Assembly (NCBI RefSeq): GCF_026229185.1
Contig: NZ_JAGGJA010000018.1
Span: 1 to 64,000, forward strand
Source: Fodinibius salsisoli
GTDB taxonomy: Bacteria > Bacteroidota > Rhodothermia > Balneolales > Balneolaceae
DNA length: 64,000 bases
Reading direction: 5' to 3'
The notes beneath the pieces are model-generated. The model saw nothing but the letters and a program-made list of their open reading frames with translations. It was not told the origin of the DNA and did no database searches. Made by a program: the position numbers and the translations under genes. Below, piece after piece: positions 31,801 through 42,227 of this stretch. Every line of letters begins with the position of its first letter. Position 1 is the first letter of the stretch.

Positions 31801-33093
31801 TTAAAATTGGTTATAAACGAGATTAAATTTTTCTCGTATTTCTTTATTGCAAAGATTCCCAATACTGCCTTCATGAGTATGGTTGATAGACTTATCCGGT
31901 ACAAAATTGCCCTCTTCAATCGCCTGGCCTACGCTCTGGTAGGCTTCCCTGAAGGGCACACCATCCAGAACATTTTTGTTGACTTCCTCTACACTAAAAA
32001 GATAATCATACTTTTTATCTTCAATGATATCCGTTTTGACTTCCACCTGCTCAAACATAAAGCGGCTGATATCCAGGCACGATTTTAAGGTTTCGACAGC
32101 CGGAAAGAGCGTTTCCTTGAGCAGTTGAAAGTCGCGATGGTAGCCGCTGGGCAGGTTATTGGTTATAAGTGTAAGCTCGCTGGGCAGATTCTGGATACTG
32201 TTGGATTTTGCCCGCACCAGCTCAAAAACATCCGGATTCTTTTTATGCGGCATAATACTTGAGCCGGTAGTCAGTTCATCCGGGAATGAGAGAAAGCCAA
32301 AATTCTGGCTCATGTATTGACAAACATCCATACTCAGTTTGGAGAGCGTTCCGGCCACCGCGCTTAACGCAAAGCTGGTCATCTTCTCCAGGCGGCCGCG
32401 ACTCATCTGCGCAGCTACGGAGTTATATTTTAAAGTATCAAAATCGAGTAGTTCCGTAGTCATGGATCGATCCAACGGGAGCGAGGTACCATAACCGGCC
32501 GCTGATCCCAACGGGTTTTGATCCGCAATACGATAAGCAGCCTGCAGCATATGCAAGTCATCAATCAGTGATTCGGCATAGGAACCGAACCATAGGCCAA
32601 AGGACGAAGGCATCGCTACCTGCATGTGCGTATAACCGGGAATAAGCACTTCTTTATGCTCTTCACTGAGTTCAATAAGCTGCTCAAAAAGAGCTTTGGT
32701 AAGCTCCTTAATTTCCGTTAGCTGCTCTTTCACATACATATGCAGGCAGACGAGCACCTGGTCGTTGCGCGAACGTCCGGCATGGATTTTTTTTCCTGTC
32801 TCGCCCAGCTCCTGGGTGAGTTCATATTCGATCTTTGAATGCACATCTTCAAAATCTTCTTCAATCGTGAAGGTGCCTTCATCAACTTGAACCAACAGCT
32901 GATCGAGGGCCGCGATCAGATCCGCTGTTTCTTGATCAGAGAGAATTTCAATACTGTTGAGCATCTTGGCGTGTGCTTGGGATGCCTTTAGATCGTATTC
33001 GGCAATCTGTAAATCCAACACTCGGTCGTTGCCAACCGTAAATCGATCAATGATGTCGCTGGTAGAGGTTTGTCCTTTATCCCAAAGTTTCAT
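31801..33093 (-). CDS. argH: Argininosuccinate lyase
   Basis: 430 residues. Splits argininosuccinate to arginine and fumarate, the last step of arginine synthesis. The fumarase/aspartase superfamily signature GSSIMPHKKNPDVFEL is clear, with HAGRSRNDQVLVCLHMYVKEQL and PGYTHMQVAMPSSFGLWFGSYAE also intact. Slightly shorter than the usual 460 residues at the C-terminus, as in other Bacteroidota-type ArgH. It follows the argE-like gene after a 75-bp gap on the minus strand. Confidence 0.95.
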   Translation of the reverse strand: MKLWDKGQTSTSDIIDRFTVGNDRVLDLQIAEYDLKASQAHAKMLNSIEILSDQETADLIAALDQLLVQVDEGTFTIEEDFEDVHSKIEYELTQELGETGKKIHAGRSRNDQVLVCLHMYVKEQLTEIKELTKALFEQLIELSEEHKEVLIPGYTHMQVAMPSSFGLWFGSYAESLIDDLHMLQAAYRIADQNPLGSAAGYGTSLPLDRSMTTELLDFDTLKYNSVAAQMSRGRLEKMTSFALSAVAGTLSKLSMDVCQYMSQNFGFLSFPDELTTGSSIMPHKKNPDVFELVRAKSNSIQNLPSELTLITNNLPSGYHRDFQLLKETLFPAVETLKSCLDISRFMFEQVEVKTDIIEDKKYDYLFSVEEVNKNVLDGVPFREAYQSVGQAIEEGNFVPDKSINHTHEGSIGNLCNKEIREKFNLVYNQF

Positions 33094-33168: not shown

Positions 33169-34230
33169 CTATTTATTGACAACGGCATCCAGCAGTTTGA
33201 TATAGATGTCAATCGCTTCCTCGATCTCCTCCAGTTTGATAAACTCATCCGCAGTATGTGAACGTGCCGACTTGCCAGGACCCATCTTCAACGAAGGAAC
33301 TGAAAGTACCGACTGATCGGATAGCGTTGGAGATCCGTACTTCGCCAGGCCCAGTTTATCACCGGACTGGACGATAGGATGATCCAGTGGAATGAACGAA
33401 GGGTTCAGGCGGATAGACCGCGCGGTAACTTCAGATTCAATATTTTCTTTAAGCGTTTCCAAAATCTGAGCATTATCGTACACATCGGTACTTCGGATAT
33501 CCACCGTAAAGGTACAGGTATCGGGTACGACATTATGTTGGCTGCCGGCCTGAATTTCGGTCACGGTCATCTTAACGGGACCCAAGGTCTCCGATACTTC
33601 CTCGAAGCGGTAGTTCTTAAACCAGTTCACATCGTCCATGGCAATGTAGATGGCATTTTTACCTTCATCACGGGCTGCATGTCCACTAATACCCTTGGCG
33701 GTACATTCCAGTACCATAAGTCCTTTTTCGGCCACCGCCATTCGCATCTGTGTCGGTTCACCCACAATAGCAAAATCAATATCCGGAATCTTATCCAGGA
33801 TGGAGACAATACCATCATCCCCGGAAATTTCCTCTTCCGCTGTTGGGGCGAGTACAAAGTTATAGTTCAAGTTTTTCTGTGGATAAAAATGAACAAAAGT
33901 TGCAATAAGAGTTGTAAGTGGTCCACCCGCGTCATTCGAGCCAAGACCAAAGAGTTTACCATCTTCTACCTGCGGGGTAAAGGGATCTTTGGTATACCCG
34001 GAATTCGGTTTAACGGTGTCGTGATGCGAATTCAGTAAAATCGTCGGTTTTTCCGGATCAAAATGCTTGTTGGTTGCCCAAATATTATTCTTGTGTCGAG
34101 AAGTCGGAATGTCTCGATCCTCCAAAAACTGCTGGATTATATCTCCGGTCTGATCTTCTTCTCGGGAAAGAGAAGGGGTGGCGATCAGCCGTTTGAGAAG
34201 TTCTGTTGCATCCGTAAATAGTTCGCTCAT
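33169..34230 (-). CDS. argE: M20 family N-acyl-ornithine/citrulline deacylase (ArgE-like)
   Basis: 353 residues of the M20 di-zinc peptidase family. Metal-binding and catalytic marks: LLNSHHDTVKP (H and D), GLGSNDAGGPL (bridging D), APTAEEEISGDDG (catalytic EE), then AIVGEPTQMRM and a closing SARSHTADEFI. In this type of cluster carbamoylation happens on the acylated ornithine, so the enzyme would remove the acyl group from N-acylcitrulline rather than from N-acylornithine; that is inference from the argF' gene. Its start overlaps the argB stop by 4 bp. Confidence 0.88.
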   Translation of the reverse strand: MSELFTDATELLKRLIATPSLSREEDQTGDIIQQFLEDRDIPTSRHKNNIWATNKHFDPEKPTILLNSHHDTVKPNSGYTKDPFTPQVEDGKLFGLGSNDAGGPLTTLIATFVHFYPQKNLNYNFVLAPTAEEEISGDDGIVSILDKIPDIDFAIVGEPTQMRMAVAEKGLMVLECTAKGISGHAARDEGKNAIYIAMDDVNWFKNYRFEEVSETLGPVKMTVTEIQAGSQHNVVPDTCTFTVDIRSTDVYDNAQILETLKENIESEVTARSIRLNPSFIPLDHPIVQSGDKLGLAKYGSPTLSDQSVLSVPSLKMGPGKSARSHTADEFIKLEEIEEAIDIYIKLLDAVVNK

Positions 34231-35003
34231 GGTGTAAGTTTAGTTCCCCTTAGGTTTAACAAATTATCGGCATGTTTGATATTAACTTGGTGCACTCCTT
34301 GCTGAAGCGCTTCAAATGCGGTGTCGAGTTTGGGAATCATGCCTTCGTGAATTATTCCCTCATCTTTTAGCTGGATGTATTTATCATGGTCAATTTCCTC
34401 GATCCAGGATTCTTCATCATTAATATCCCGGAGGACGCCCTGTTTTTCAAAACAGTAGGTTAACGTTGATTGATAGCGATCAGAAAGCGCAATGGCCAGG
34501 ACCGAGGCAATGGTATCGGCATTGGTATTGAAAAGCTGGCCTTGGGTATCGTGCGTGATAGCCGGAAAGACAGGCACGACCTGCTCATCCAGCAGTCGCT
34601 TAATAAAGTAAGTATTGACGTCTTCAGCCGTAATATCGCCTACAAAACCAAAATCTATGGTCGGATGGTTTCGTTTTTTTGCAGGGATGATATTGAGGTC
34701 AGCGCCTGAAAGACCAATTGCATTGGTAGAACGTCCCTGGAGTTTTGCAACAATCTTCTTATTGAGCAGTCCGGCGTACACCATCACAGCCACATCCAAA
34801 GCAGGCTTGTCCGTAATGCGCCGCCCATCTTTCATTTGGATGGGGATGCCCAGCTTTTTGCAGAGATCAGAGGCGGAGGATCCGCCGCCGTGGACCAGAA
34901 TCTTGGGATGGTCCATGGCTACAAAATTATCCAAAAAAGTTGGTAGTCGATCTTCATTATTGGCAATACTGCCGCCAATCTTTACAATGTTCAAAGTCTG
35001 CAT
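34227..35003 (-). CDS. argB: N-acetylglutamate kinase
   Basis: 258 residues from the ATG at 35003, chosen because it overlaps the argF' stop as TAATG and begins MQTLNIVKIGGSI; a longer frame to 35132 only adds out-of-family residues. Amino-acid kinase family marks: NIVKIGGSIANNE, KILVHGGGSSASDL, IGLSGADLNII and LFNTNADTIASVLA. It phosphorylates N-acylglutamate. Whether the acyl group is acetyl or succinyl depends on the pathway variant (see argF'). Coupled on both sides by stop/start overlaps. Confidence 0.93.
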   Translation of the reverse strand: MQTLNIVKIGGSIANNEDRLPTFLDNFVAMDHPKILVHGGGSSASDLCKKLGIPIQMKDGRRITDKPALDVAVMVYAGLLNKKIVAKLQGRSTNAIGLSGADLNIIPAKKRNHPTIDFGFVGDITAEDVNTYFIKRLLDEQVVPVFPAITHDTQGQLFNTNADTIASVLAIALSDRYQSTLTYCFEKQGVLRDINDEESWIEEIDHDKYIQLKDEGIIHEGMIPKLDTAFEALQQGVHQVNIKHADNLLNLRGTKLTP

Positions 35004-35938
35004 TATAGATTTTCCAATAGGTTTTGAAGTACGGCTTGCGCAGCATACTCGCGGTTCTTGGCCTGCTGGTACACAATAGAGTGATCTATCACTTCGTCCG
35101 ATGCTACCACATTTCGGCGTATCGGAAGGCAATGCATAAATTCAGCCTGGTTCGTGAGTGCCATTTTCTCTGGTGTGATGGTCCAGGTGCCATTGACGTT
35201 CGGCGTAGCTCCATAATCAGTGTAGCTTGACCAATTTTTAGCATAAATAACGTTGGCATCTTTAAAGGCTTCTTCCTGGTCATAAGTTTGCATAAATCCA
35301 TCTGCAAAGCTTTCTGCCAGTTCATATCCTTGAGGGTGAGTTATAGTAATATCGGCCTCGATGGCCGGGAGCCACTGCAAAAAAGAATTGGCTACGGCCT
35401 GTGGAAGCGGCTTGGGATGGGGTGTCCAGCTGAGTACTACTTTCGGTTTTTTGATCCCGATGTCGGCAATGGTCGCCATGTCCGTGAGTGACTGCAGCGG
35501 GTGGAGCGTCGCAGATTCCATACTGATGACGGGTACCGAGCTGTGTTCAATAAAATTGTTCAGCACCTGCTCACCGTAATCTTTTTCGCGGTCACGAAGT
35601 GTGGCAAAACTGCGGACGGCCAAAATATCGCAATAGCTGCTGATGACTTTCACCGTATCCTTTATGTGCTCCTGGGAAATGCCGTCCATCACGGTACCAT
35701 CCTCAAATTCAACCTTCCAGGAGTCTTTGCTGATGTTGAGCACAATAACATCCATCCCCAGGTTTTGGGCGGCCTTTTGGGTACTCAGTCGGGTACGCAG
35801 ACTGGGATTAAAGAATATGAGTCCTACCGTCTTTTGCCGGCCGACCGAGGAGGAGGTCGGGTTTTGTTTTAGATCAACGACTTGCTGAATAAGTTGCTGA
35901 GGATCATCGACATCCTCGATTGATGTAAAATGCTTCAT
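35003..35938 (-). CDS. N-acyl-L-ornithine transcarbamylase (ArgF' type)
   Basis: 311 residues from the ATG at 35938 (MKHFTS); an ATG one codon earlier is possible. It is the Bacteroidota/xanthomonad type, not ordinary ArgF: FFNPSLRTRLSTQKAAQNLG binds carbamoyl phosphate, SWKVEFEDG supplies the tryptophan characteristic of this branch, and FMHCLPIRRN replaces the usual HCLP motif ending. Relatives use N-acetyl- or N-succinyl-ornithine, with one residue (Glu92 in Xanthomonas, Pro90 in Bacteroides) deciding. By my alignment the equivalent here is Gln89 in GISQEH, so the substrate is open. Overlaps argD and argB ends. Confidence 0.9.
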   Translation of the reverse strand: MKHFTSIEDVDDPQQLIQQVVDLKQNPTSSSVGRQKTVGLIFFNPSLRTRLSTQKAAQNLGMDVIVLNISKDSWKVEFEDGTVMDGISQEHIKDTVKVISSYCDILAVRSFATLRDREKDYGEQVLNNFIEHSSVPVISMESATLHPLQSLTDMATIADIGIKKPKVVLSWTPHPKPLPQAVANSFLQWLPAIEADITITHPQGYELAESFADGFMQTYDQEEAFKDANVIYAKNWSSYTDYGATPNVNGTWTITPEKMALTNQAEFMHCLPIRRNVVASDEVIDHSIVYQQAKNREYAAQAVLQNLLENL

Positions 35939-37077
35939 CATGCCATACATAGTTTGAGCGCATTTTCGAGCGCGGTTATAAATTGATTTACTTCGTTTTG
36001 AGTAACACTCAAAGGAGGAAGGAGCCGCAGCACGTTGGGATCAGATGAAACCCCCGTCAGCACCTGTTCTTCTTCAATAAGTGTATGGCGAAGCTCCTTA
36101 ATGGGGAAGGGAAATTCAATACCAATCATGAGTCCCCGGCCGCGTACCTCTTCAACTTGAGGCAAGTTCTCAAGTCGTTCCAGCAGCTCCTGTCCCCGTT
36201 GAGCCGCATTTTCAATAAGGTTTTCATTTTCAATAACATTAAGCACGGCCGTTGCTGCTGCACAAGCCAGATGGTTGCCACCGAAGGTAGAGCCCAGCTC
36301 TCCATAAAAAGGTTCGATATCGGGATGAATAATAGTACCCGCAACCGGAAATCCGTTACCCATGCCTTTGGCGACTGTCACAATATCGGCTTTAATGCCG
36401 GCGTGTTGGTGGGCAAAGAACTGTCCCGAACGTCCGTATCCGGATTGGATTTCATCACAGATAAGCAGCGCATCGGTCTCAGAGCAGAGTTGACTCACAT
36501 TCTGTAAGAAGTCGTCATCGGGAATGTTAATACCGCCAATGCCCTGGATGCCTTCCACGATGACCGCACAGACATCACCGCCGGCCAGTTCTTTTTGGAG
36601 GCCTTCCAGATCATTAAGTTCTAAAAAAGTTACTTCCGCACTTTTATTGACGGGGGCTACGTATTTGTCATTATCCGTGATGCCGATGGCCGCTGACGTT
36701 CGTCCGTGAAAAGCCTTCTTAAAGGCTACAATTTTTGATTTTCCGTTATGGAAAGAAGCAGCCTTCAGGGCGTTTTCGTTGGCTTCAGCCCCGGAGTTGC
36801 TCAAAAACAGTTGGTAATCCTCATAGCCCGAAAGTTTACCTAATTTAGTTGCAAACTTTTGTTGCAGGGGATTTTGAACGGAGTTGGAATAAAATCCGAT
36901 ATCCCGCAGCTGGTGATTAATTTGGTTCACATAATGAGGATGCGAGTGGCCGATAGATATTACGCCATGGCCGCTGTAAAAATCCAGGTATTGATTGCCA
37001 TCGGCCGTGAAGACATGGCGGTCCTGGGCTTTTACAGGTTCTAAATCAAGTAAGGGATAAACATCAAAAAGTTTCAT
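35938..37077 (-). CDS. argD: Acetylornithine/succinylornithine aminotransferase
   Basis: 379 residues, PLP-dependent class III aminotransferase that makes N-acylornithine from the semialdehyde. Visible marks: YLDFYSGHGVISIGHSHPHYV, SNSGAEANENALKAAS, GRTSAAIGITDN, LLICDEIQSGYGRSGQFFAHQ and the PLP-lysine in TVAKGMGNGFPV. The stop codon overlaps the start of the transcarbamylase gene and it starts two bases after argC ends. The family also includes gamma-aminobutyrate and succinylornithine enzymes, but the operon places it firmly in arginine synthesis. Confidence 0.95.
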   Translation of the reverse strand: MKLFDVYPLLDLEPVKAQDRHVFTADGNQYLDFYSGHGVISIGHSHPHYVNQINHQLRDIGFYSNSVQNPLQQKFATKLGKLSGYEDYQLFLSNSGAEANENALKAASFHNGKSKIVAFKKAFHGRTSAAIGITDNDKYVAPVNKSAEVTFLELNDLEGLQKELAGGDVCAVIVEGIQGIGGINIPDDDFLQNVSQLCSETDALLICDEIQSGYGRSGQFFAHQHAGIKADIVTVAKGMGNGFPVAGTIIHPDIEPFYGELGSTFGGNHLACAAATAVLNVIENENLIENAAQRGQELLERLENLPQVEEVRGRGLMIGIEFPFPIKELRHTLIEEEQVLTGVSSDPNVLRLLPPLSVTQNEVNQFITALENALKLCMA

Positions 37078-37079
37078 AG

Positions 37080-38057
37080 TTAAAAGTGTGAAGGTTTGAG
37101 ATAAAGACCTGCAGATTCATCGAGATCAAACATCAGGTTCATATTTTGGACGGCTTGCCCGGATGCTCCTTTCAAGAGATTATCAATGATGCTGGTAATA
37201 AGCAGTTTGCCATCCTCTTTTGCCACGTGCAGCAGGTCTTTGTTGGTGTTGACGGCTTGTTTTAAGTGAATAGGTTCATCACTGAGATGAACGAAGGGTG
37301 AATCTTGGTAATAATCTTTAAAGAGTTCCCGGGCTTGCTCAGCCGAGAGGTCGGATTGCGTATAGGCGGAGATAAAGATCCCACGCGTAAAATCGCCTCG
37401 AACGGGAATAAAGTTCAGCTCTCGATCAAAATTGGGATCCAGCTGCTCAATTTTTTGGCGAACTTCACCGATATGCTGGTGGCGCAATGGTTTGTAGATG
37501 GAGACATTGCTATCACGCCAGCTAAAATGCGTGGTTTCTCGCATTGAACTCCCTGCACCAGTTGAACCAGTGATACCGTGAATATGCACATCCTCATTAA
37601 GGTTAGAACTATTTGCTAACGGATAGAGAGCCAATTGAATAGCGGTAGCAAAGCAACCGGGATTGGCAACATTGTCCGCGTTCTTAACAGCCTCTTTCTG
37701 AAGCTCCGGCAGTCCGTAGGTAAATCTTCGATCGTTGTACGTTTGATCCGGTGCCAGGCGGAAATCCCGACTCAGGTCGATGATTCTGGTGCTATCATCC
37801 ACGGGGTGGGAGTCTAAGAACTCCACAGAATTTCCGTGGCCCATGCATAAAAAGAGCACATCGATATCAGAATCAAGCTCGTGGCTGAAGTGTAAATCAG
37901 TTTCTCCCAGCAGGTCACGGTGGACTGAAGCCACAGGCTCGCCGGCCTTGCTGGTACTAAAAATAAATTGGATCTCTGTTTCCGGATGATTGAGTAGAAT
38001 ACGCAACAGTTCGCCCGCTGCATATCCGGTGCCCCCGACAATTCCTGCTTTAATCAT
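37080..38057 (-). CDS. argC: N-acetyl-gamma-glutamyl-phosphate reductase
   Basis: 325 residues. Reduces N-acylglutamyl phosphate to the semialdehyde with NADPH. N-terminal AGIVGGTGYAAGELLRILLNHP, active-site cysteine in NPGCFATAIQLAL, and HIHGITGSTGAGSS plus FIPVRGDFTRGIF. It lies between argG (8-bp overlap) and argD (2-bp gap). Length and motifs are normal for the Bacteroidota type; the alternative N-acyl-aminoadipyl enzyme of lysine synthesis is unlikely given the operon. Confidence 0.95.
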   Translation of the reverse strand: MIKAGIVGGTGYAAGELLRILLNHPETEIQFIFSTSKAGEPVASVHRDLLGETDLHFSHELDSDIDVLFLCMGHGNSVEFLDSHPVDDSTRIIDLSRDFRLAPDQTYNDRRFTYGLPELQKEAVKNADNVANPGCFATAIQLALYPLANSSNLNEDVHIHGITGSTGAGSSMRETTHFSWRDSNVSIYKPLRHQHIGEVRQKIEQLDPNFDRELNFIPVRGDFTRGIFISAYTQSDLSAEQARELFKDYYQDSPFVHLSDEPIHLKQAVNTNKDLLHVAKEDGKLLITSIIDNLLKGASGQAVQNMNLMFDLDESAGLYLKPSHF

Positions 38058-39252
38058 TACTATTGTTATTAACTGATTGGTGGATTTTAATTTGATTGGA
38101 TAGGATTTTAGCGAACCCTTTTACGTCTTCGCCGCTCCAGGCGTTATTCATTTCGCCGTAGTCTCCAAATTTAGCGTTCATCAGGTCGTTGTCGGACGTG
38201 ATGCCCTCAATTTCAAAGCGATAGGGCAACAGACGGATGGAAACCGTGCCGTTCACAACGGGCTGTGTATCATCCAAAAAGGCTTCAATATTGCGCATCA
38301 CCGGATCGAGATATTGTCCTTCGTGGAGCATCATACCGTACCAGTTGGCAAGCTGATCTTTCCAGTGGAGCTGCCATTTGGTGAGTACATGCTTTTCCAG
38401 CTGCTCATGGGCTTTGATAATAAGCATGGCTGCAGCGGCTTCGAATCCAACCCGGCCTTTAATGCCAATGATTGTATCGCCCACGTGGATATCGCGGCCA
38501 ATGGCATATTGGGAAGCAAGGGCATCCAGCTTTTGGATGAGTTCGATGGAACCGTAGCTTTCACCATTGATAGCTGTCGGTTCGCCTTCAGTAAACGTTA
38601 ATTTCAGTGTTTGAGGCTCTTCCTTTTTGAGCGGACTGGGATAGGCTTCATCCGGCAATGGCTGGTCTGACGTCAGGGTCTCAGCTCCGCCCACGCTGGT
38701 GCCCCACAGGCCCTTGTTAACCGAATATTTGGCCTGGCTCCAGTCCATATCCACATCGTGATCCTGCAGAAAAGCCACTTCTTCCTCACGCGTCAGCTGC
38801 TGATCGCGGATGGGGGTAATAATATCCAGGTCAGGGGCAATTACATTGAAAACAAGATCAAAGCGCACCTGATCGTTGCCGGCTCCGGTGCTTCCGTGGG
38901 CAATAGCATCGGCGCCCACTTCCAGGGCGTATTTAGCAATAGCTACGGCCTGGAATACACGTTCCGAGCTAACTGAAAGGGGATAAGTGTTATTTTTGAG
39001 AATATTCCCAAAAATAAGATACCGGATAACTTTTGAATAATAGTCTTCTGTTCGCTCCAGTGTCTGGTGCGTATGGCTGCCGAGGCTGTACGCATGCTGC
39101 TCAATATCATCCAGTTCCTGTTGGTCAAATCCACCGGTATTTACGAGGACGGTATGAATTTCAGCTTGGTATTGCTCCTTTAAATAGGGCACACAATAGG
39201 AGGTGTCAAGTCCTCCGCTAAACGCTAATACTATTTTCTTTTGTTGAGCCAT
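38050..39252 (-). CDS. argG: Argininosuccinate synthase
   Basis: 400 residues. Joins citrulline and aspartate with ATP. The ATP-binding PP-motif VLAFSGGLDTSYCVPYLKE opens the protein; SVSSERVFQAVAIAKYALEVGADAIAHGSTGAGNDQVRF and KYSVNKGLWGTSVGGAET follow. It belongs to the Bacteroidota branch of ArgG. Its start lies 35 bp inside the 3' end of the GNAT gene and its stop overlaps argC by 8 bp, so translation is probably coupled throughout. Confidence 0.95.
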   Translation of the reverse strand: MAQQKKIVLAFSGGLDTSYCVPYLKEQYQAEIHTVLVNTGGFDQQELDDIEQHAYSLGSHTHQTLERTEDYYSKVIRYLIFGNILKNNTYPLSVSSERVFQAVAIAKYALEVGADAIAHGSTGAGNDQVRFDLVFNVIAPDLDIITPIRDQQLTREEEVAFLQDHDVDMDWSQAKYSVNKGLWGTSVGGAETLTSDQPLPDEAYPSPLKKEEPQTLKLTFTEGEPTAINGESYGSIELIQKLDALASQYAIGRDIHVGDTIIGIKGRVGFEAAAAMLIIKAHEQLEKHVLTKWQLHWKDQLANWYGMMLHEGQYLDPVMRNIEAFLDDTQPVVNGTVSIRLLPYRFEIEGITSDNDLMNAKFGDYGEMNNAWSGEDVKGFAKILSNQIKIHQSVNNNSND

Positions 39253-39907
39253 CTTGGATTAGAAAGTTTAGGAATTTTTTGGTTTTACGTTGAAGGTTTC
39301 GTTGATGGAGCCGAAGAAACCGCTTAAATTTCTTCCAGCGGGTCTGTTTGTCAGCTTTTTTCTCGGAGGTCTTCTCATTGGGGTCGTAAAGCATACCCGT
39401 GCAGAGGCAACCCTTGCGATCTTCGTTGGTAAGAATATCATAATTAGGGCAGCTCTGGCATCCTTTCCAATACTCTTCGTCGTCGGTCAGCTCGGAAAAC
39501 GTTACGGGTTTATATCCCATATCTGAGTTGATCCTCATGACCGCCATGCTGGTGGTGATACCGAAGATTTTGGAATCCGGGTATTTTTTGCGAGAAAGTT
39601 CAAAAATGTTCTCTTTAATGCGTCGGCCTAATCCCAGCTTACGGTAATGGGGATGCACAATAAGGCCGGAATTGGCAATATATTTTTCGTGTCCCCAGCT
39701 TTCGATATAACTGAAGCCAGCCACTTGATCTTTGTCAAGATCAACAGCAATAACGCCTTTGCCTTCTTCCATTTTGGACTGCACATACTCGGGCTTACGT
39801 TTGGCGATACCGGTACCTCGCTGCTTGGCAGCTTCTTCCATGAGGTCGCAAATTTCTTTTGCATGCTTAAAATGCCGCGAATCTGCTACAGATATTTGAA
39901 TATCCAT
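39218..39907 (-). CDS. GNAT acetyltransferase heading the arginine operon (probable acylglutamate synthase)
   Basis: 229 residues. The GNAT fold occupies about residues 1-150, with the acetyl-CoA loop HPHYRKLGLGRRIKENIF and TTSMAVMRINSDMGYKPV. After this comes a cysteine motif CQSCPNYDILTNEDRKGCLC and a strongly basic tail. Its position as first gene of a full arginine operon that lacks argA and argJ makes it the best candidate for the first step, acylation of glutamate; that is inference from context. Its 3' end overlaps argG by 35 bp. No Shine-Dalgarno is visible before 39907. Confidence 0.75.
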   Translation of the reverse strand: MDIQISVADSRHFKHAKEICDLMEEAAKQRGTGIAKRKPEYVQSKMEEGKGVIAVDLDKDQVAGFSYIESWGHEKYIANSGLIVHPHYRKLGLGRRIKENIFELSRKKYPDSKIFGITTSMAVMRINSDMGYKPVTFSELTDDEEYWKGCQSCPNYDILTNEDRKGCLCTGMLYDPNEKTSEKKADKQTRWKKFKRFLRLHQRNLQRKTKKFLNFLIQDGSTKENSISV

Positions 39908-39994
39908 ATTGTTAAAAGGGTAAAATTGATATCAAACAACAGCATATAGTTATTGCTGATGTTAAAAGAGTTTGTCGGTAAAGTCGGAGTGTGG

Positions 39995-40030
39995 GGAGAG
40001 TGGCGAAAAAGAGACTCTCCACCAAGAGAG
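39995..40030 (-). promoter_or_regulatory. Alternative hairpins in the arginine operon leader
   Basis: Read on the minus strand, GGAGAGT (40020-40014) can pair with a downstream ACTCTCC (40001-39995) over 7 bp, or its GAGAG can pair with the upstream CTCTC (40030-40026) over 5 bp. The two pairings exclude each other, which is the geometry of a 2:3 versus 3:4 attenuator. No clean T-tract follows, so termination by this hairpin is not proven; Rho or a translational effect are alternatives. Confidence 0.45.
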
Positions 40031-40034
40031 GTGT

Positions 40035-40091
40035 TTAGGAGCCCAGGAGGGCCCGCGGTCGTGGCCGCCGAATTGGACAAAGCGGAGACAT
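40035..40091 (-). CDS. Arginine-rich leader peptide of the arg operon
   Basis: An 18-codon frame, MSPLCPIRRPRPRALLGS, lies 128 bp before the first arginine gene. Four of residues 8-13 are Arg (CGG CGG CCA CGA CCG CGG). The codons are G+C-rich in an otherwise A+T-rich spacer. A strong hairpin (GGGCCC, TCCT loop, GGGCTC) covers its last codons, and the alternative hairpins follow. This is what a ribosome-stalling attenuator for arginine would look like. No Shine-Dalgarno is visible, and another frame (MSSLCLRFV...) overlaps it, so expression is unproven. Confidence 0.55.
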   Translation of the reverse strand: MSPLCPIRRPRPRALLGS

Positions 40092-40162
40092 AGGGAGGAC
40101 ATCAACAGATGGACTGTCGAATAAAAAATTGATATGTCTTCCGCGTTTTTTCATTAGGGACT

Positions 40163-40191
40163 ATTATAATATCTTATCCGGCAAAATACAA
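40163..40191 (-). promoter_or_regulatory. Promoter of the arginine operon
   Basis: On the minus strand TTGTAT (40191-40186) and a perfect TATAAT (40168-40163) are separated by 17 bp. The start of transcription would fall near 40155, leaving about 65 bases before the leader peptide and 250 before the GNAT gene. It is divergent from recQ. Confidence 0.65.
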
Positions 40192-40292
40192 AATATTTTT
40201 TTGGCCATGTAAATTGTAAGTTGTACTGCTGGTTTATGATCTGTCCTTTTCAGTGGACCATTATATGATGACCATAACTTTTATGTGTTAGA

Positions 40293-42227
40293 ATGGATAA
40301 CGAAACCTTAGAAATAGCCCGAGAAGCCTTACAAAAGCATTGGGGATTTACCTCCTTTCGCGAGGGGCAGGATGCTGCTATTAAGTCTGTGTTGGAGAAA
40401 AAGAATACGATGGTTTTGTTCCCAACAGGTGGTGGGAAATCTCTCTGTTACCAGCTGCCTTCCGTATTATTCGAGGGGCTGACCATTGTTATTTCTCCAC
40501 TGGTGGCCCTTATGCAGGACCAAGTGCACCAATTGAATGAGAGAGGTATTGCAGCCACCTTTGTAAATAGCACTATTTCTTCCTGGGAGGTAGAACAGCG
40601 GCTGGTTAATGCCCGCAACGGCATGTATGATTTGCTTTATTGCGCCCCTGAACGACTCGAGACCCCTCTCTGGGAAGCGGAGCTTCCAAGATTGGATGTA
40701 GACCTGATTGCCATTGATGAGGCCCATTGTATTTCGGAGTGGGGACACGACTTTCGGCCAAGTTACCGCCAGATTAGACCCGCTTTTGAGTCCATAGCTG
40801 ACTCGGTAAGCTGGATTGCCCTTACTGCTACCGCTACCCCTGAAGTGCGTGCAGATATTGCAGAAAACCTTGGTTTTACCGATCCGGAAGTGATCTCAAA
40901 AGGGTTTGAACGGCCCAATTTAAAATGGTGGGTTACCGCAACTGAGCAGAAACAGAAAAAAATATTGAATGCTGTCAAAAAAGCGGCTCCATTGGGATCG
41001 GGGCTCATTTATGGGGGTACCCGTCGTAATTGTGAGGAACTTGCCCGGAAAATTACGAATCAGCTTGGAGTCAAAACAGAAGCATACCATGCAGGGATAG
41101 AATCATCAAACAGGGAAGAGGTTCAAAACAGGTGGATAGCGGGTGATCTGCCTCTCGTGGTGGCTACAAATGCCTTCGGCATGGGCATCGATAAAGCCGA
41201 CTGCCGTTATGTGATCCACTACGAGATGCCGTATTCTCTGGAAGCGTATTACCAGCAGGCAGGCCGCGCGGGGCGCGATGGACTGGAGAGCTTCCCGATG
41301 CTTCTGTTTAAGCCTTCGGATTTAGCTATTGCCCGGCAGCGTATCAAAGATTCGTATCCCGAAAAGGACCAGCTGCAACACGTATATGATGTACTTTGCG
41401 ATAGCTTAAATTTGGCAGTAGGAGCTGAAATGGAGAAGTCAGAAGAAGTTTCGATACGAGCATTGGCCAAGCGGTCCGGCTACCCGGCTCGAATTACACA
41501 GTCGGCACTTAAAGTACTTAACCAGCTGAGTATCATTGAGTTAATTGAATACCTGAAGCCACGGGTAGGTATCCAATTTGTTGCAAGCCAGGATTATATC
41601 CGTGAGCAGATACAAGTATCCGAGAACCAGCGAAAATCACTATTCCTGGATACCTTGCTCCGGCAATTCGGAGGAGAGGCCTTTGCTGCAATGAAATACC
41701 TGGATTTCGATTATATACAACAAAAGCTGGGCGTATCTCCTAATGCGGTCAAAAAGGGATTGCAGGTGCTTCAGGATCATGATCAGCTACTGAAGTTTGA
41801 ACTCAACGGAGAGCAACCCATGGTAAAACTGGTAGATGAACGGCAGGCAAAACTTCGATTACGAAAGGAAGAATTAGAGCAATACCGTAATACCCTGCTT
41901 GAAAAATTAGCCTATATGAAAGGCTATATTCAAACGGAAAATTGTCGGGAAGTATATATCCGTCAGTACTTTGGGGAGCAAGAAGTATCGCCTTGTGGTC
42001 ATTGCGATAATTGTTTACAGAAGAAAAAAGAGGACGTACAGTTTACGAATTCTGACCTATTAGCGATCAGGCAGGCACTAAGCGGGGGAGGGAAAACATT
42101 AGGACACCTTTGCCGGCAACTGGGGTGGAGTAAAGCACGGATAAAGCGATCATTAAGCCACCTGATACGCGAAGAAAAAGTCAGGGCAAAGACGGAAAAA
42201 TATTTCTGGGTCAATAACAATAAGTAG
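40293..42227 (+). CDS. recQ: ATP-dependent DNA helicase RecQ
   Basis: 644 residues. Motif I FPTGGGKSLCYQLP, motif II IAIDEAHCISEWGHDFRPSY, motif III LTATATPEV, motif VI QQAGRAGRDG, and the zinc-binding cysteines in NCREVYIRQYFGE...CGHCDNC are visible. The last 70 residues (SDLLAIRQALSGGGKTLGHLCRQLGWSKARIKRSLSHL) form a helix-turn-helix-like end rather than a full HRDC domain. RecQ unwinds DNA in repair and recombination. Single gene, divergent from the arginine operon. Confidence 0.95.
   Translation: MDNETLEIAREALQKHWGFTSFREGQDAAIKSVLEKKNTMVLFPTGGGKSLCYQLPSVLFEGLTIVISPLVALMQDQVHQLNERGIAATFVNSTISSWEVEQRLVNARNGMYDLLYCAPERLETPLWEAELPRLDVDLIAIDEAHCISEWGHDFRPSYRQIRPAFESIADSVSWIALTATATPEVRADIAENLGFTDPEVISKGFERPNLKWWVTATEQKQKKILNAVKKAAPLGSGLIYGGTRRNCEELARKITNQLGVKTEAYHAGIESSNREEVQNRWIAGDLPLVVATNAFGMGIDKADCRYVIHYEMPYSLEAYYQQAGRAGRDGLESFPMLLFKPSDLAIARQRIKDSYPEKDQLQHVYDVLCDSLNLAVGAEMEKSEEVSIRALAKRSGYPARITQSALKVLNQLSIIELIEYLKPRVGIQFVASQDYIREQIQVSENQRKSLFLDTLLRQFGGEAFAAMKYLDFDYIQQKLGVSPNAVKKGLQVLQDHDQLLKFELNGEQPMVKLVDERQAKLRLRKEELEQYRNTLLEKLAYMKGYIQTENCREVYIRQYFGEQEVSPCGHCDNCLQKKKEDVQFTNSDLLAIRQALSGGGKTLGHLCRQLGWSKARIKRSLSHLIREEKVRAKTEKYFWVNNNK

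Follow-up and report, generated by a model that had tools for sequence, protein, structure and literature searches.

Ribosome-mediated transcription attenuators are known for the trp, his, leu, ilv, thr and phe operons; in E. coli, attenuation is described as being used for no arginine gene (PMC6245113). In tnaC of E. coli, the ribosome near the leader stop codon governs Rho access, and it stalls with excess tryptophan by way of its peptide. A study of Actinobacteria found no conserved RNA structure before their arginine operons and mentioned T-boxes for arginine genes elsewhere (PMC1262725). Clues to leader-peptide attenuation upstream of flavobacterium amino-acid operons have been published, with arginine not named in the relevant section (PMC9723704), as have Bacteroides short open reading frames (ORFs) reminiscent of leader peptides (PMC7366714). 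One survey does not contain the word ‘arginine’ in its main text (PMC2965389), and another includes a motif before carA of beta-proteobacteria (PMC8632094). In the open-access literature that we searched, subscription papers and supplements being outside its scope, no bacterial arginine-biosynthesis operon was found to have a leader-peptide attenuator. An initial sequence-only reading of the locus described here had called such control undescribed, a claim that holds only for the literature searched.

The locus is the spacer between the divergent recQ gene and an arg operon of Fodinibius salsisoli, within a window of 64,000 nucleotides (the whole stretch of DNA that was analyzed). Like the trp, his, leu, ilv, thr and phe attenuators, the spacer combines a short ORF, codons for the product of the pathway and possible mutually exclusive hairpins, all placed before the matching operon. 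An arginine leader attenuator is likely to be the best explanation of the spacer as a whole, including a probable stop by Rho; its arginine-sensing part is well supported, and the way in which transcription stops in operons led by a GNAT acetyltransferase gene is inference.

The leader ORF and its arginine codons

The features of the locus, in window coordinates, are as follows.

40293..42227, plus strand: recQ, the divergent neighbor in the genus
40191-40186, minus strand: -33/-35 element TTGTAT of the leader promoter
40168-40163, minus strand: -10/-7 element TATAAT, after a 17-nt gap from TTGTAT
40035..40154, minus strand: leader peptide ORF MKKRGRHINFLFDSPSVDVLPMSPLCPIRRPRPRALLGS, 39 codons plus TAA, ATG at 40154, stop ending at 40035
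40082..40144, minus strand: hairpin within the leader’s 5′ half, 40144-40133 (GCGGAAGACATA) pairing with 40092-40082 (TATGTCTCCGC)
40053..40070, minus strand: Arg sensor codons R29 R30 P R32 P R34 (CGG CGG CCA CGA CCG CGG)
40039..40054, minus strand: hairpin GGGCCC/GGGCTC over the final leader codons
40026..40031, minus strand: segment A (CCTCTC), directly 3′ of the leader stop
40014..40020, minus strand: segment B (GGAGAGT), partner A or C
39995..40001, minus strand: segment C (ACTCTCC), partner B
39908..40013, minus strand: C-rich, G-poor stretch ending at the first gene, a putative Rho loading and termination region
39940..39958, minus strand: hairpin (CAGCA..TGCTG) 5′ of the first gene, no role assigned
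39218..39907, minus strand: GNAT acetyltransferase, first gene of the operon
38050..39252, minus strand: argG (argG models, slightly below cut-offs)
37080..38057, minus strand: argC (TIGR01850, above cut-off)
35938..37077, minus strand: argD-like transaminase (TIGR00707, below cut-off)
35003..35950, minus strand: N-acetylornithine carbamoyltransferase (NF003384, above cut-off)
34227..35132, minus strand: argB (TIGR00761, above cut-off)
33169..34230, minus strand: argE/dapE-family deacylase (TIGR01910, below cut-off)
31801..33093, minus strand: argH-like, named by eye from its translation without family-library support

The sequence-only reading had proposed a promoter with a perfect TATAAT at 17-bp spacing, and both points hold, but the -35 hexamer matches TTGACA at only three of six positions and the promoter was not reported by a simple sigma-70 scan of the window. 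TATAAT ends 8 nt from the leader ATG; by usual promoter geometry, the leader transcript should therefore be leaderless or nearly so. Of 30 family loci, only that of Fodinibius salsisoli has a perfect TATAAT no more than 16 nt from the leader ATG; the relatives have A+T-rich sequence at this position. A TTG starting 35-38 nt 5′ of the leader ATG is present in 27 of the 30 loci, against a background of 10%; promoters of the -33/-7 type are typical of the phylum, and the TTG spacing fits them.

The same reading had recognized an 18-codon frame, MSPLCPIRRPRPRALLGS. This frame exists at 40091-40035, yet it forms only the last 18 codons of the 39-codon ORF, and its internal ATG at 40091 is not a methionine codon in every relative, whereas the ATG at 40154 is kept in all nine genus spacers that precede the operon. 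The claim of four Arg within six codons (R29-R34) is correct, and so is that of a G+C-rich leader amid an A+T-rich spacer (60% G+C at 40000-40099 versus 30% at 40100-40199). The Arg cluster precedes a GNAT-argG-argC-argD-acetylornithine carbamoyltransferase-argB-argE operon, so that the sensor codons match the end product of the operon. ORF and arginine codons are shown; translation of the ORF and a response to arginine are inferred from sequence alone, without transcript, ribosome or expression data. A similar Arg leader was sought before carA of the same genome and was not found.

The GNAT protein gave only a weak match to a generic N-acetyltransferase model (NF005840, 23 bits, cut-off 154), and it is possible, by inference, that the gene encodes an unrecognized N-acetylglutamate synthase. 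It has relatives in Flavobacterium and others. The mechanically called argB ORF opens at a far-upstream TTG, the true start probably being the ATG of MQTLNIVKIGG inside it.

Conservation of the arginine-rich leader

A DNA search of 20 genomes, that of Fodinibius salsisoli included, gave matches in seven; a protein search found the GNAT first gene in 9 of 12 genus genomes. Each of the nine spacers carries a frame of 34-39 codons with in-frame length changes and an Arg cluster near its end (for example, PIRRRPRALPGS, PIRRRPRALSGS, VRPRPVRV and VRRRALRAQQ). Relatives without the frame or its Arg codons had been named as the observation that would refute the attenuation reading, and none of the nine genus spacers is of this kind. 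In clade I (four species), the 3′ half of the ORF has 20 synonymous versus 8 nonsynonymous single changes, where neutrality predicts 28% synonymous; this coding-type conservation is shown. The 5′ half of the same clade (8 versus 48) and both halves in clade II (five species; 10 versus 43 for the 5′ half, 6 versus 16 for the 3′ half) reveal no coding constraint. As a synonymous excess is confined to the clade I 3′ half, constraint at the protein level is demonstrated in one clade alone, and there only for the part with the Arg codons, from pairwise counts that are not independent. The remaining three genus genomes (G005, G007 and G008) have no match to the GNAT gene or to argG, so they provide no case of a leader lost while the pathway stays. 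These three may be arginine auxotrophs.

The GNAT gene occurs in 43 of 128 genomes of the order, 42 of which belong to the family of the window genome. An Arg-rich ORF precedes it in 40 of these 42, namely in the nine genus loci, 21 of 21 further loci, L110, L111 and L120, and seven of the nine remaining; outside the genus, the Arg cluster is thus present in 31 of 33 family loci. This position before the arg operons of the family is shown. Family-wide, the only misses are G044 (L137) and G097 (L138), which, like G124 (L140) of another family, have no Arg-rich ORF within 330 nt before the GNAT gene; whether an arg operon follows the GNAT gene in these three genomes has not been established. In the DNA retrieved for the 21 non-genus loci, recQ turned up once (L018), whereas the Arg ORF is present in all 21, indicating that the leader travels with the arg operon and not with recQ. 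Over 30 leaders (G000-G011 spacers and L018-L038), CGG accounts for 112 of 176 Arg codons, compared with 52 of 213 in eleven window genes; this excess could reflect a codon chosen for sensitivity to arginine shortage.

A strict test required an ATG, 15-45 codons, at least three Arg in five codons within the last 15, and a stop no closer than 60 nt to the gene. It was passed by 28 of 30 family loci versus 0.26 expected from dinucleotide shuffles, with 2 of 30 on reverse strands; the two misses (G004 and G009) have three Arg in six codons. The leaders of G030 and G034 are identical, and many loci are close relatives.

Leaders were also sought before other arg operons of the class. The order was searched for argG in a selection of 34 genomes rather than in full; 33 of these lack the GNAT gene, and 25 gave an argG-like match (26 loci, three of them from family members G045 and G051); a class sample outside the order added 10 further arg loci. 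An Arg-rich leader precedes 32 of these 36 loci. Three of the misses (L055, L061 and L062) have only 0, 34 and 170 nt of upstream DNA, respectively, and only L044 is a genuine miss. The strict test was passed by 20 of 23 order loci (1.0 expected; 7 on reverse strands) and by 10 of 10 class loci outside the order (1.0 expected; 2 on reverse strands). Since CGN runs read as Arg on the reverse strand too, the reverse strand is a weakened control.

This bears on the explanation that the frame is a chance product of CGG/CCG runs in a GC-rich spacer. In its favor, CGN runs give Arg on both strands, and reverse strands pass in 2 of 30, 7 of 23 and 2 of 10 cases. Against it stand the 28 of 30 family loci versus 0.26 in dinucleotide shuffles, the fixed promoter-to-ATG distance and the synonymous substitutions in the Arg part of clade I; chance is thereby all but excluded.

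Beyond the class, the GNAT gene was found in 47 of 118 genomes of a phylum sample. Loci outside the class, taken as the best-scoring of the phylum search, pass the strict test in 9 of 16 cases (0.28 expected; 1 on reverse strands) and fail in 7; left out were L118, which is of the window’s own class and has no argG beside the GNAT gene, and L120, of its own family. Ten named loci, eight of them from Flavobacterium, give one pass (0.10 expected; 2 on reverse strands) and nine failures. Arg runs are present in L066 and L112 though missed by the strict test, and the eight Flavobacterium loci, which precede the same GNAT gene, have no Arg run. By eye, a frame around SR..SPEVR seems to recur in several Flavobacterium spacers (L067-L074); its Arg codons are merely scattered, and it may be a weaker leader. 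A looser pick outside the class finds a leader in 11 of 17 loci, with no terminator in any and with C exceeding G in 9 of the 11. In four loci outside the class (L113, L114, L122 and L123), two Arg-ended short frames stand in tandem upstream of the gene, as in L113, where MHTSNKTNQISLRRRRPMRRR is followed by MQSYNTFLSLPIIIITTDNRISVRRFFPRP; only in L113 does the second frame begin with an ATG.

No match to the ArgR repressor model PF02863 was found in the window genome, which is 98% complete; the control matched in 8 of 14. This failure to find ArgR is shown. With the same search settings, ArgR was found in 46 of the 118 phylum genomes, all outside the class, and the ArgR and GNAT sets overlap in a single genome, G184, whose ArgR match lies at the 25-bit cut-off and carries a stop. 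These counts are uncorrected for relatedness, no tree-based test having been made. It is possible that the leader does the job of the repressor ArgR used elsewhere.

RNA folding and the stopping step

The minus strand of the spacer folds better than dinucleotide shuffles (z -4.7). Several genus members are predicted to form helices like the one in the 5′ half of this ORF (mean z for the ORF -2.1, n=9), whereas other genera are not (mean z for the ORF +0.2, n=21); RNA structure may be what holds the 5′ half of the leader ORF.

The plus strand folds likewise, and a structured noncoding RNA directed toward recQ, with the ORF accidental, is a further explanation. It is supported by the plus-strand score (z -4.25) and by a GC hairpin ahead of a TTTTTT run at 40146-40151. 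However, this T-run is not kept in all relatives, recQ accompanies only 1 of 21 non-genus loci although each has the Arg ORF, both the Arg codons and the signs of coding belong to the minus strand, and Rfam covariance models (T-box, riboswitches, 6S and others) gave three matches within 39800-40400, all far below the gathering score. We regard it as very unlikely. A 6S-like plus-strand RNA in particular, suggested by conservation, a GNRA-like loop and the T-run, was rejected on account of the minus-strand frame, the Arg codons and the synonymous changes in genus spacers. The 6S model had no match in the genome; 6S-Flavo had none either, but its control matched nowhere, so that absence is not shown.

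On the minus strand, the GGAGAGT of segment B had been noted as able to pair either upstream or downstream, and this holds: a CTCTC segment lies upstream and ACTCTCC downstream, at 40001-39995. In the other genus members segment B reads GGAGGG. Both A:B and B:C are possible in all nine genus members, exceeding 95% of shuffles in four (A:B) and five (B:C), a modest strength. The full post-stop fold has z values of -2.0 to -5.0 in all nine, and the post-stop hairpin a mean z of -2.3 across 30 family leaders. A ribosome is generally taken to reach 13 nt, counted from the first nucleotide of the codon in its A site. By this figure, one at the leader stop extends to +10, so that most of A is covered; segment B starts at +11 to +17 in eight of nine members, free of that ribosome, and at +9 in G003. 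When the ribosome is on the last Arg codon, its edge lies between -8 and +4: A is then free in eight of nine members, and in G010 its first base is touched. By this geometry, starvation favors A:B and plenty favors B:C, which suits B:C as the OFF state; that the switch is in actual use is inferred. By eye, a hairpin with a similar loop, of the GAAC-TTAGGTGAGTCCG-GTTC type, follows the Arg leader in L065, L112, L113, L114, L122 and L123; its stem varies and it has no strong T-run.

No intrinsic terminator was found by a hairpin plus T-run test after any of the 30 GNAT-led family leaders, nor in any of 11 leaders outside the class (for L113, L114, L122 and L123, the upstream one of the two leaders was picked; the L126 pick is doubtful). 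A terminator scan of the window gave one weak site, located on A:B (6 pairs, 3 of them G-C; 0.4 expected by shuffles). The A:B hairpin was considered as an intrinsic terminator and rejected: it is terminator-like in the window genome, but none of the relatives has one by the hairpin plus T-run test. As none of the 30 family leaders has a terminator, the OFF step is unproven.

In the other arg operons of the class, a GC hairpin with a T-run follows 31 of the 32 leaders, versus 2 of 32 reverse complements, and these terminators are shown. Two of the 31 are from G045 (L063 and L064), a family member in which a terminator-type leader precedes a different arg operon. Lack of a terminator is therefore not special to the family, because 0 of 11 leaders outside the class have one while G045 does. 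RNA lying after the Arg codons and ahead of the terminator can form an antiterminator with the terminator’s 5′ arm, as in L106 (GGAACCGGCGC with GCGCCGGTTCC) and in L050 (GTGAAGATT with AATCTTCGC), where the codons involved encode a recurring CEDCV; such pairing is better than 95% of shuffles in 13 of 31 leaders versus 1.6 expected, judged by mononucleotide shuffles only. By their sequence, the class arg operons other than those of the GNAT-led type have the makeup of textbook attenuators, with leader and terminator and, in some, an antiterminator.

For the GNAT-led type, a Rho-dependent stop is favored as an inference and remains unresolved, C-richness being weak evidence and no proof of a Rho site. 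The best 60-nt stretch after the leader in the window genome has 24 C and 4 G. Over the family, the segments from leader stop to gene total 859 C versus 400 G, with C exceeding G in 30 of 30; the terminator-bearing class set has 781 C versus 702 G, with C exceeding G in 17 of 32. Rho is encoded in the window genome by one locus above the cut-off (standard rho on C22). There is also a second Rho-like gene (G000:C39:29795-30877; L076), which scores 411 bits, below the cut-off of 509.

The missing terminator also leaves room for an arginine leader with a different output, namely translation or mRNA decay, with stalled or terminating ribosomes altering the RNA fold around the first-gene start codon rather than ending transcription. 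Besides the absence of an intrinsic terminator from the 30 family leaders, this explanation can draw on a hairpin shortly before the first gene in genus members, on a hairpin that could form at the start codon (CATCG or CATTG pairing with CGATG) in five of five clade II sequences, and on rbfL (PMC13009471) and speF (PMC6386406), which show such outputs for arginine. It is opposed by the intrinsic terminators with which the same kind of leader works in other class arg operons, by the hairpin ahead of the gene, which in many of the other genera falls short of significance (mean z -1.15, n=30), and by the fact that no pairing was found that frees or hides the first-gene start. On balance, we consider it unlikely.

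Another explanation is nascent-peptide arrest, for which TnaC and the fungal arginine attenuator peptide are models: the peptide together with free arginine would stall the ribosome near the stop codon, so that high rather than low arginine would cause the stall. PRRR directly precedes the stop in 15 of 21 non-genus family leaders, where a ribosome that stalls and one that terminates would occupy almost the same place. Apart from Arg, however, the peptide sequences vary widely between genera and families, which is unexpected of an arrest peptide, and the antiterminator layout of the class relatives fits starvation stalling. Peptide arrest is therefore very unlikely.

Proposed mechanism and comparison with known systems

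The reading that we prefer remains attenuation through arginine starvation. In this model, transcription from the promoter would begin at the start codon of the 39-codon ORF, which has the Arg cluster at its end, or a few bases ahead of that codon. When arginyl-tRNA is plentiful, the ribosome would run to the stop codon and cover A, B would pair with C, and the ribosome would leave; C-rich RNA would then be exposed, and transcription would stop before the arg operon, probably by way of Rho. When arginyl-tRNA is short, the ribosome would wait on the Arg codons, and either A:B would form or the waiting ribosome would shield the RNA; termination would be avoided and the operon made. Alternatively, the waiting or leaving of the ribosome may itself be the switch. 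Both readings are inferred to converge on exposure or protection of a Rho-type region. The attenuation proposed by the sequence-only reading is thus supported, with the corrections that the ORF has 39 codons and is nearly leaderless and that a search of this operon type found no intrinsic terminator.

A bolder reading, which we can neither favor nor discount, is that Arg-codon leaders replace ArgR in the class and in part of the phylum and come in two forms: one with a textbook terminator, the other terminator-less, preceding GNAT-led operons, stopped by Rho and with an almost leaderless ORF. Leader control that replaced ArgR across the class and part of the phylum, in one form with a terminator and another without, would illustrate how the sensing and stopping halves of such a device evolve apart. 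The leader would, by inference, be an easily tested arginine-responsive control element, and many short ORFs of this kind may be missed by annotation. The pathway concerned is the one for which E. coli is said to lack attenuation (PMC6245113).

Among described systems, the trp- and his-type attenuators are matched most fully by the other arg operons of the class, which also have a terminator and, in part, an antiterminator; unlike the known attenuators, the leader in the window is inferred to sense arginine, has no intrinsic terminator and has a nearly leaderless ORF. In the speF leader of Salmonella (PMC6386406), as proposed here, Arg codons of a leader ORF (orf34) respond to arginine and Rho-dependent termination is involved, but orf34 controls ornithine decarboxylase, has two consecutive Arg codons and acts via mRNA decay and the ribosome-binding site. 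The rbfL leader of S. aureus (PMC13009471) likewise senses arginine shortage through its Arg codons, but it has eight codons and hides the ribosome-binding site of a biofilm regulator. The carA leader of Pseudomonas aeruginosa (PMC4997734) places, like that of the window, a leader peptide ahead of a gene required for arginine; however, carAB also serves pyrimidines, and there attenuation is tied to pyrimidines and arginine to transcriptional control. Candidate leaders of mycobacterial cys operons (PMC1262725) share with the window leader a run of sensor codons near the stop, the absence of a terminator and a proposed role for Rho (a weak prediction), but concern cysteine and Actinobacteria. 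With tnaC, finally, the window leader shares a decisive ribosome near the stop codon; here, the favored stall is one caused by arginine shortage on the Arg codons.
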